In this document: positions 53,253 to 58,315 of the stretch, one piece after another
Position numbering within the stretch: position 1 is the stretch's first letter
Layout of the letters: each line of letters begins with the position of its first letter
Source of the DNA: Nanobdellota archaeon
GTDB lineage: Archaea; Nanobdellota; Nanobdellia; Woesearchaeales; WJKV01
DNA: 64,000 bases
Direction of reading: 5' to 3'
NCBI GenBank assembly: GCA_023133595.1
Contig: JAGLWF010000004.1
Location: 42,917-106,916, forward strand
Notes under the pieces: model-generated
The model's database searches: none
Told to the model about the DNA's origin: nothing
Seen by the model: only the letters and a program-made list of their open reading frames with translations
Made by a program: the position numbers and the translations under genes

Positions 53253-53960
53253 CTAGCCAACATAGCTGAGCTGTTTCTTGTCCTTTTCCTTGACTAATTC
53301 CTTGCTTTTGGACATCAATTCCCTCAGCTTGGTCTCGAACTTCTTAGCGCTCGCAACCAATGGTTTGACGTCGATATTTAGCTTCAGATACTTGTTCAGG
53401 GCCTCAATAATCTTAGCAGCAGCAGCTGAATCAGGCAGTCGAGAGTGCGTCTCAGCAAAAATACACGTCAATGGTATCTCTTTCTGCAGCATCAATGCTC
53501 CTGTAACCCCCATTATAATGCCTTCCTTAAGGGGCTCTAGGCCCATTTTTTTGAACTTTTGGTCCGCTCTATTAGAAAAATAAAATCCTCTATGATTCCT
53601 GCTTAATTCAATAGGGACACCCACGCTTTCGACTGAGATAATCTCTTTTACACCCCACTTTTTGGCGTTTGCGAGCAGTAATTCAGCAATCTGGTTCTCT
53701 GCTCCTGGTATCGAAGATATGACATGAAGTATCAAAATATTGTTTTTCTCGTCGTAAAAGAACGCCAAAGGACGCACAACTTTTGTATCATGCACAGCAA
53801 CCATTGGCGGAATCTCTTTGCCAACTATCATCCCTACTGGCTTTGCTTTAAGATGCTGTATCAAGAATTCAGTTGTTATAGTACCAACAAGACCGATTCC
53901 AGGGAATCCTTCAATTATGGTCGCTCCCTTCTTGATCTTCTTGTCAAGTATGATTTCCAT
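53253..53960 (-). CDS. PAC2-family protein (proteasome-assembly-chaperone-like)
   Basis: IIEGFPGIGLVGTITTEFLIQHLKAKPVG...GVTGALMLQKEIPLTCIFAETHSRLPDSAAAAKIIEALNKYL. Confidence 0.85.
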   Translation of the reverse strand: MEIILDKKIKKGATIIEGFPGIGLVGTITTEFLIQHLKAKPVGMIVGKEIPPMVAVHDTKVVRPLAFFYDEKNNILILHVISSIPGAENQIAELLLANAKKWGVKEIISVESVGVPIELSRNHRGFYFSNRADQKFKKMGLEPLKEGIIMGVTGALMLQKEIPLTCIFAETHSRLPDSAAAAKIIEALNKYLKLNIDVKPLVASAKKFETKLRELMSKSKELVKEKDKKQLSYVG

Positions 53961-54544: not shown

Positions 54545-55168
54545 ATGGAGGGCAGACAGCCTGAGGGGGCTCTAAACATAGGCAAGCGTACATACGGCTT
54601 ATACATGGAAAGGCAGAACCAAAGGATATTCCTTGTATATCAGCTCACTTCTATAGAAAACGCAATATCTGATATTGTAAAGGCTTCTAACGCTCTCGAC
54701 GCTGTTCAGACCAATCCTGGAGAGATCATGACAGAGCAGAAAGCACTGGAGTTCCTCACAGAAATCAGCGGAGACCAAAATCTACCTTTCCAGAGCAGGA
54801 GACATATCCTGGCAATCAAGCTCAAACTCAAGGACAGGCACTTCCAATACAGGGGGCTTGTCAAAAGCTTGGACGAGAAAATTGTCCATGATGATCTAGT
54901 TCACAGGGAATTGATCTACACTGCCAGGGAACTGTTGGCAAAAGGAGAACTCGGTCCAGACACCAATGCTTTGATCATGGTCAGGTGCAGAGACTTATCT
55001 TCTGGCTCTGGAAGACACAAGAGATTTTCATCAAGAATTTTGCTCGCAACTGGCAGACCAGTGGTTGAAAGATTGGAAATGCATGCAGATCATGAAATTC
55101 ATCGCGCGCAACTGCTGCTATCAGCTCCAATTTTCGAATATTATCTGCCGAAATACCATCCCAGTTGA
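54545..55168 (+). CDS. Hypothetical protein
   Basis: 207-aa ORF directly after the preceding gene. Confidence 0.6.
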   Translation: MEGRQPEGALNIGKRTYGLYMERQNQRIFLVYQLTSIENAISDIVKASNALDAVQTNPGEIMTEQKALEFLTEISGDQNLPFQSRRHILAIKLKLKDRHFQYRGLVKSLDEKIVHDDLVHRELIYTARELLAKGELGPDTNALIMVRCRDLSSGSGRHKRFSSRILLATGRPVVERLEMHADHEIHRAQLLLSAPIFEYYLPKYHPS

Positions 55169-55280
55169 GAATTCTACGGGTACAGGGCTTAATTTGGATG
55201 AATTCAGCGTTTATTGAATCCGATCGTTATATTTATATCTTATAAAGGGGCCCCATAAGCAAGCCAAAAAGATTAAATAT

Positions 55281-55310
55281 GAGTTCGTATAAGGTACATT
55301 ATACGCACTC
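55281..55310. promoter_or_regulatory. dif-like Xer recombination site candidate
   Basis: GAGTTCGTATAA-GGTACA-TTATACGCACTC: 12-bp arms (11/12 match), 6-bp core. Confidence 0.6.
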
Positions 55311-55312
55311 GG

Positions 55313-56152
55313 GTGATAGACATCGATTTGGCAAAAATCAAGCAAAAAATCAGCACAGAACTGAAGATCCAGGGAAAGTCTTCCCAAACAATCCGGATGT
55401 ACTGTTTGTTCAATGTAAAATTTCTAGAATTTGTGAAAAAAGACCCAAAAGTCATGACAGAGGATGATATCAAAGGATATCTCGCTTATCTGATTTCAGA
55501 CAAAGGATATGATCCAAGCTCAGTCTCATTAGCCAGATCAGCTCTCAGATTCTACTATGATGATCTTTTAGGTAAAAATCTTACATTAAGTATCAAAACA
55601 CCAAAAAAGCAACGCAAAATCCCAGAAATCCCTAGCAAAGAAGAGATCAAACAACTTCTGGAGTCAGCAGGTACCTTGAGGGACAAGCTGTTGATCGAGT
55701 TCATGTACAGCTCGGGACTGCGAGTAGCAGAGTGCGCCTCACTCAAGATCTCAGACCTTGATTTGAAGGAGAAGATCGGATTGCTCAAAAGAGGTAAGGG
55801 CGCCAAAGACCGCTTTTTCATCCTCTCTAACAAACTTATAGAAGATCTCGGCCAATACCTGGAAGAGTGCAAGGAAAGCTCGAAATACGTGTTTCCAGGC
55901 CGTACAGCTGCTATATCCACGAGAAGGATCCAGGAGATTGTCCGTCAAACAGGAAAAACAGCAGGCATCAAGAAAAAGGTCTACTGCCATCTGCTGAGAC
56001 ACGCGTTCGCGACACATCTCCTCGAAGCAGGCACAGACATTAGACTTATACAGGAGCTTTTAGGACACGAAAATCTTCAAACAACACAACTTTATACAAA
56101 GATCAGCACAAAACAGCTCAAGCAAGTGAAGAGTCCTTTGGATGAGCTATAA
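55313..56152 (+). CDS. xerA: XerA-like tyrosine recombinase
   Basis: SSGLRVAECASLKISDLD; GKGAKDRF; CHLLRHAFATHLLEAGTDIRLIQELLGHENLQTTQLYTKI; GTG start. Confidence 0.92.
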   Translation: MIDIDLAKIKQKISTELKIQGKSSQTIRMYCLFNVKFLEFVKKDPKVMTEDDIKGYLAYLISDKGYDPSSVSLARSALRFYYDDLLGKNLTLSIKTPKKQRKIPEIPSKEEIKQLLESAGTLRDKLLIEFMYSSGLRVAECASLKISDLDLKEKIGLLKRGKGAKDRFFILSNKLIEDLGQYLEECKESSKYVFPGRTAAISTRRIQEIVRQTGKTAGIKKKVYCHLLRHAFATHLLEAGTDIRLIQELLGHENLQTTQLYTKISTKQLKQVKSPLDEL

Positions 56153-57248: not shown

Positions 57249-57797
57249 CTATTCCCAAGCTTTCATGACTTTTCCTGCTTCTGTTGCCAATACATTTCCA
57301 GTTCCACGACCGAGAATCATCTCAGGGATATACTGTTCCAGATCCAATGAATCTTCGAATGGAATGTACATATTTATTCCAAACTTTGTAATGTGCACGT
57401 TTCCCCGGATAGAAAAGTGGGTACGTTTCTCGGATAATATACGTTTCAGATAATCCAGCGACGGATGCCACATCAATTCATTGCGAAATTCAAATACTTC
57501 TGTCTGTCTACCATAAAGTTTTTCACCGTCGATAAAACCACCACCGATCTTATTATTGTTGACTAAAATATCATACTCTATATCACCGATAAAAACGCGG
57601 ACAAAAGTTGGATTATATAATCTCAGTTCACCGTCGAGGGTGAAACCTTCCAAAGATAAATCAGATAATTTATTGATCTTAACATCATGAATTTCCAACT
57701 GATGATACGCATAATAAGTGTAAGAAGTATAGACGATAATTATTACTAATAAAACAATCGCACCGATGACAATAGCTTTTTTCTCCCACTTTTGCAT
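57249..57797 (-). CDS. LEA14-like (LEA_2/WHy) membrane-anchored protein
   Basis: N-terminal TM; LSLEGFTLDGELRLYNPTFVRVFIGDIEYDILVNNNKIGGG. Confidence 0.65.
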   Translation of the reverse strand: MQKWEKKAIVIGAIVLLVIIIVYTSYTYYAYHQLEIHDVKINKLSDLSLEGFTLDGELRLYNPTFVRVFIGDIEYDILVNNNKIGGGFIDGEKLYGRQTEVFEFRNELMWHPSLDYLKRILSEKRTHFSIRGNVHITKFGINMYIPFEDSLDLEQYIPEMILGRGTGNVLATEAGKVMKAWE

Positions 57798-58315
57798 TAT
57801 AAACCACTGACGATAGATTGGTCAAAACAATCCAAAGTCAAAGTTTTCTCAATATTCAAGATATTTTTCTTTGTCTGCAATTCCTTGAACGCTGGGTCGA
57901 GGATAAAATAAGTTTTCCTCTTGATTAAATGTTTAGTGATCGGAACTCCTTTCTCGATCAGACTGTTGATAAAGTACCGGACAAAAGATTCGCTTTTTCT
58001 CAAGGCTTCAGAGATATCCAAATAAGTTAATGCAGATTCAGATTGATAAAAAATCATAAAAACATCCTGTTCTTGTTTTGTGATCTTTATTTTTTTAGGT
58101 TTTGATTCACTTATTTTTTCAGAAGTTAGTTTTGTAAGAATTTTTTCAAACACATGCATCTTGGACTCAAGAAATTTCAAGCGTTTGTTCATATCAATCA
58201 GATATGTATAGTTCATTTCCACTTCAGAAGTATTCTCATTGATCGCCTGTAAATGCTCATCAAGTTCTTGCCTTAATTCTTCCACTGCTTTGGCTACTTC
58301 GCCTGTTATAATCAT
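57797..58315 (-). CDS. Coiled coil plus winged-helix-like protein
   Basis: Helical N-terminus; LTYLDISEALRKSESFVRYFINSLIEKGVPITKHL. Confidence 0.55.
   Translation of the reverse strand: MIITGEVAKAVEELRQELDEHLQAINENTSEVEMNYTYLIDMNKRLKFLESKMHVFEKILTKLTSEKISESKPKKIKITKQEQDVFMIFYQSESALTYLDISEALRKSESFVRYFINSLIEKGVPITKHLIKRKTYFILDPAFKELQTKKNILNIEKTLTLDCFDQSIVSGL

Follow-up and report, generated by a model that had tools for sequence, protein, structure and literature searches.

The window, a 64-kb stretch of DNA, contains a dif-like palindrome directly in front of a gene encoding an archaeal Xer-type tyrosine recombinase (xerA). The features of the locus are as follows.

53253-53960, minus strand: gene of the PAC2 family (Pfam PAC2, 3e-36)
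55266-55272: purine-rich, BRE-like stretch AAAAAGA, placed before the TATA-box-like element
55273-55280, plus strand: TATA-box-like element TTAAATAT, abutting the left arm of the dif-like site; putative core promoter of xerA, as judged by sequence
55281-55310: dif-like site, with left arm (55281-55292), centre GGTACA (55293-55298), and right arm (55299-55310)
55313-56152, plus strand: xerA, tyrosine recombinase of 279 amino acids with a GTG start
57797-58315, minus strand: gene for a 172-amino-acid protein with no Pfam match

The palindrome is intergenic, occupying the gap between an open reading frame that ends at 55168 and xerA, and the order of elements is AAAAAGA-TTAAATAT, left arm, centre, right arm, GG, and the GTG codon.

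The xerA product matches Pfam Phage_integrase (8.8e-43) and the NCBIfam model NF040815 (XerA_Arch; 247.7 bits, above the curated cut-off of 220). All catalytic positions (R137, K162/K165, H226, R229, H252, and Y261) are kept in the alignment, which bears out the XerA-like recombinase with catalytic motifs recognized in the original prediction. The closest solved structures are 4a8e (E value, 6.8e-52) and 5hxy, the XerA proteins of Pyrococcus abyssi (PMC3646895) and Thermoplasma acidophilum, respectively. The closest named genomes with a near homologue (63-65%) are Candidatus Woesearchaeota assemblies. Membership in other recombinase subfamilies was rejected: the XerS model gave 80 bits against a cut-off of 267, XerH is only weakly related, and the integron integrase model TIGR02249 gave 192.5 bits against a cut-off of 265, with the match split over two stretches. 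The same genome encodes a second XerA-like protein (L003, G000:C7:27258-28025; 38% identical), which falls below the XerA cut-off and is nearly as close to the integron integrase model. This gene forms a paralogue group with L023, L024, L026, L028, L032, and L033, several members of which carry upstream motifs of the CACTGGACA type in place of dif arms. The L003 paralogue, rather than the xerA product, could be the resolvase.

The palindrome predicted at this position is present exactly as described and reads GAGTTCGTATAA-GGTACA-TTATACGCACTC. Its arms agree at 11 of 12 positions (GAGTTCGTATAA versus GAGTGCGTATAA) around a 6-bp centre, and only the dinucleotide GG separates its end from the GTG codon at 55313. 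Two 11-bp inverted arms around a 6-bp centre in intergenic DNA also make up the layout of known XerA/dif systems; in Pyrococcus and Thermococcus, a single XerA is accompanied by a single-copy dif with an 11+6+11 inverted repeat (according to Cortez et al. 2010, PMC2958812). The likeness to Escherichia coli dif that had been pointed out is partial, amounting to 18 of 28 positions in the orientation originally compared and 20 of 28 on the minus strand, and 20 of 28 is also the score of the best single 28-mer of the window.

The symmetry alone proves little, because 0.2 pairs of arms (11/12 with 6-bp spacing) are expected per window in shuffled sequence and the real window contains two, a second 11/12 pair being present. 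These numbers are what a chance palindrome has in its favor; dozens of genera retain both the sequence and its location ahead of xerA, which argues against it, and we consider this explanation already refuted by the comparative data. The site was also found to be unique, as the original prediction had proposed to check: it is the sole match at up to 3 mismatches in its own assembly (1.37 Mb in 38 contigs), and the next-best match has an E value of 0.24. A single copy per chromosome is what XerA/dif systems display, and this count holds for an assembly that is 92% complete. Scored with a position-weight matrix whose training sequences came from the scored set but excluded the window and the three relatives nearest to it, the site reached 32.3, compared with 6.4 for the runner-up place in the window. 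Pattern and matrix scans found no second site in the 64-kb window.

Tyrosine integrase genes frequently adjoin their own att site, and the palindrome might likewise be the att site of an integrated element with the neighbouring gene as its integrase, as the original prediction had allowed. This reading finds no second direct copy in the genome, faces a protein that is a XerA equivalog, and sits poorly with the gene neighbourhood, which is common to many relatives: at least 8 of them have a PAC2 homologue close to xerA or dif, and the gene at 57797-58315 recurs at the xerA loci of about 15 or more (tblastn). The shared neighbours suggest that the locus is chromosomal and inherited and not part of an integrated element, and we consider an att site very improbable. 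One relative (G028:C65:947, L112) has a perfect site with the centre of the window's site on the other strand and a PAC2 gene nearby, and no xerA was found within the 10 kb fetched around it.

Comparative analysis placed the site upstream of xerA in many families. The shared motif AAGTTCGYATAA-N6-TTATRCGAACTT occurs within 2 kb upstream of xerA at 47 of 73 loci and downstream at 1 of 73, in a set that includes some loci fetched for having a site; for the 18 loci picked by xerA alone, the upstream number is 12. A search of 352 genomes of the order for the core TTCGYATAA-N6-TTATRCGAA (at most 1 mismatch) returned about 42 matches in 40 genomes, nearly always a single match per genome where present, while the reversed control pattern gave single matches in a handful of the same 352 genomes. 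Sites sharing a contig with a recombinase gene lie upstream of it in 26 of 28 cases, 5 to 2940 bp away (the table includes two sites at 2 mismatches and two beside a xerA fragment or a weaker integrase). Twenty further xerA loci had no core match, and 17 of these possess a weaker upstream site with a score above 9, a value that null sequence yields about once per several hundred kilobases. The distance to the gene is highly variable. Outside the order but within the class, distances of 1.4 to 9 kb upstream of xerA are common, and full sites overall are found from 5 bp to approximately 9 kb from the gene, with some on other contigs and one downstream. No site is recognizable within 2 kb at about a third of the compared xerA loci; the closed genome G010 yielded only weak site candidates and no clear skew pattern. 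In the relative G001, both arms are altered together (GCACAA...TTGTGC) and the symmetry is kept. In G040 (C56:36778, L113), a dif-like site precedes a different integrase, weaker and 31% identical, by 111 nt. Many of the comparison genomes, which are related to one another, are fragmented metagenome assemblies.

The conservation upstream of xerA that the original prediction proposed to check extends over dozens of genera. Because the motif is conserved upstream of xerA across families, the site is of the Xer/dif type and linked to xerA, and it is very likely the recombination site, or dif, of the adjoining XerA. Of the several readings first offered for the palindrome, the Xer/dif site is the one that uniqueness, conserved sequence and linkage, and a bona fide XerA uphold. 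By analogy with studied XerA proteins (PMC2958812, PMC3646895), two XerA molecules would bind the two 11- to 12-bp arms. The enzyme would then cleave where the arms border the 6-bp centre, and strand exchange with the corresponding site of a sister chromosome could resolve chromosome dimers.

Location at the replication terminus belongs to the usual picture of dif, and the position relative to GC skew was likewise proposed as a check. In G185, the sole relative permitting the test, the site is about midway along a 405-kb contig and the cumulative GC skew runs straight past it with its direction unchanged, so a terminus position is unsupported there; G039 has no clear skew change at the site. 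GC skew fails to locate the terminus in Thermococcales as well, according to Cortez et al. (PMC2958812).

The site also has a relationship to the promoter of xerA. The TATA box at 55273-55280 would, from its position, place the transcription start within the right arm, and the arrangement of a TATA-like element followed by an arm recurs in relatives. A TATA-like hexamer is found within 16 nt on either side of 36 of the 47 full sites, compared with an expectation of approximately 12% (background, 6.4% per side). TATA boxes are nearly palindromic. The two sides of the full sites do not differ significantly in this respect (24 versus 17; P = 0.28), and the idea that every full site belongs to a promoter directed at xerA alone was dropped on this ground. 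Because the two sides are alike, the claim is limited to a site that abuts a TATA-like element.

Stronger evidence comes from the 27 xerA genes that have no full site nearby. In 15 of them the promoter contains a dif half-site, defined as a 12-mer that scores more than 10 and lies in the 110 nt preceding the gene, with start codons partly guessed. The same definition was satisfied by 1.4% of 1804 windows before other genes and by 2.3% of shuffles; the resulting P value of about 2e-21 is a guide only, because related genomes are not independent samples (G431 and G435, for example, belong to one genus). The half-sites typically lie between a TATA-like stretch, which directly precedes them, and the start codon, as in G435 (ATTATTTAAACA-AAGTTCGTATAA) and G207 (CTTATATACTTTA-AAGTTCGTCTAA-tctccATG). 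They do not appear to be degraded full sites, since the partner arms are at noise level except in G372, where the spacing is 8 bp; this dif-like site (L251), 87 nt before xerA, reads TAGTTCGGATAA-gactaatt-TTAAGCGAAATG.

That half-sites persist in front of xerA where no full site is close by speaks for a function as operator in addition to recombination, and the autoregulatory operator mentioned in the original prediction gains ground from half-sites at promoters where the full site is missing or has moved. Since the site separates the TATA box from the start codon, XerA bound there should block initiation at xerA and so would provide negative feedback, a step suggested by position and conservation. 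We consider it probable that the site in the xerA promoter also acts as the xerA operator.

The site might instead be dif only, its place in the promoter an accident of tight linkage, as in the XerS and XerH modules, with no regulation involved. Recombinase genes that stand alone with a dif beside them are known from XerS/difSL, XerH/difH, and the XerA of Sulfolobales (as described in PMC5357621 and PMC2958812), and the variability in the distance between site and gene fits such an account. Lone half-sites kept beside the TATA box where xerA has its full site elsewhere would be difficult to account for if xerA were unregulated, and we regard this alternative as unlikely, though the most credible of those considered. 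Conversely, the palindrome could be only the xerA operator, with the true recombination site elsewhere and alike because one protein binds both. This explanation agrees with the half-sites found where xerA has no full site close to its promoter, and with the TATA box that abuts the arm. Its difficulties are that the genome contains no other close copy, that full sites far from xerA, on other contigs, or downstream would be needless for a pure operator, and that two intact arms with a 6-bp centre are the layout of a Xer site; it is therefore quite improbable. Our preferred reading is that the site is both the dif of XerA and the operator of xerA, to which we assign a probability of roughly 0.6.

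Some relatives carry more than one site. Two to four close dif-like sites were found in G026, G039, and G173 within the order and in G372, G376, G403, G422, G469, G501, and G523 elsewhere in the class. Three or four dif-like sites lie within 1.1 kb in G173 (C40:22286-23389) and 5.2 kb in G501 (C65:3155-8338), and G177 has three near-identical extra sites of the TTCGTATAACTAATTTTAAACGAA type (C10, C26, and C70; L202-L204) besides the xerA-linked one. The xerA-holding stretches of G372 and G403, members of one genus, are 77% identical over 2.2 kb, and the genes enclosed by two sites of conserved centre are wholly different (a TPR protein versus several small open reading frames). Dif-like sites with conserved centres surround unrelated genes in three members of this genus (G372:C1:244495-245329, G403:C3:17854-20811, and G376:C1:59172-60074). 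In G376 a possible toxin-antitoxin pair lies by the site, with a weak ParE match (19.7 bits versus a cut-off of 23). These sequences suggest that dif-bounded cassettes have been exchanged in this genus, and by analogy the arrays resemble the dif modules of Acinetobacter. For this DPANN class as a whole, we tentatively propose that the dif arm is a conserved operator through which XerA represses xerA via the half-site on the TATA side, that a full dif at this place would couple site occupancy to recombinase supply, and that in some relatives the locus may be a platform for XerA-mediated cassette exchange between neighbouring dif sites.

Among known systems, the closest is the XerA/dif of Thermococcales, with which the site shares the 11+6+11 layout, the single copy, and many positions as in bacterial dif; dif in that group lies away from xerA, in a late-replicating region, whereas the window's site touches the start of xerA (both points as given in PMC2958812). 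In Sulfolobales, dif is predicted near xerA, as here, but these are a different archaeal group, and the promoter position and half-site operators do not feature in the passage describing it (PMC2958812). The XerS/difSL and XerH/difH modules also link one recombinase gene to its own site, but they involve other recombinase subfamilies and sites and are bacterial and FtsK dependent (PMC5357621). As in the dif/pdif modules of Acinetobacter (PMC12907356, PMC6449649), several dif-like sites flank small exchanged genes in some of the relatives; unlike those modules, the system is archaeal and upstream of xerA, and the window has a single site. A dif/pdif module in the window was rejected, as genes between two dif-type sites were seen only in some relatives. 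Integrons, including archaeal ones (PMC9668308), likewise place a recombination site (attI) beside the recombinase gene (intI), but XerA scores below the integron integrase cut-off and its site is a symmetric dif-type palindrome. A literature search returned no paper on Woesearchaeota that covers dif and XerA, nor one on DPANN that covers Xer and a dif site, and the half-site operator idea was absent from the titles listed by a search on Xer autoregulation. What appears to be new here is a site touching the TATA box of xerA together with half-sites kept at xerA promoters.

If correct, these findings would extend Xer/dif to a large, mostly uncultured archaeal group, and a specific site of its own for each of dozens of genera would make XerA specificity directly testable. 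The dif modules of bacteria would gain an archaeal equivalent in the arrays that accompany exchanged genes in relatives. To our knowledge, Archaea lack FtsK, which puts the control of XerA recombination at issue, and a dif arm serving as the xerA operator would be a simple and testable form of such control.
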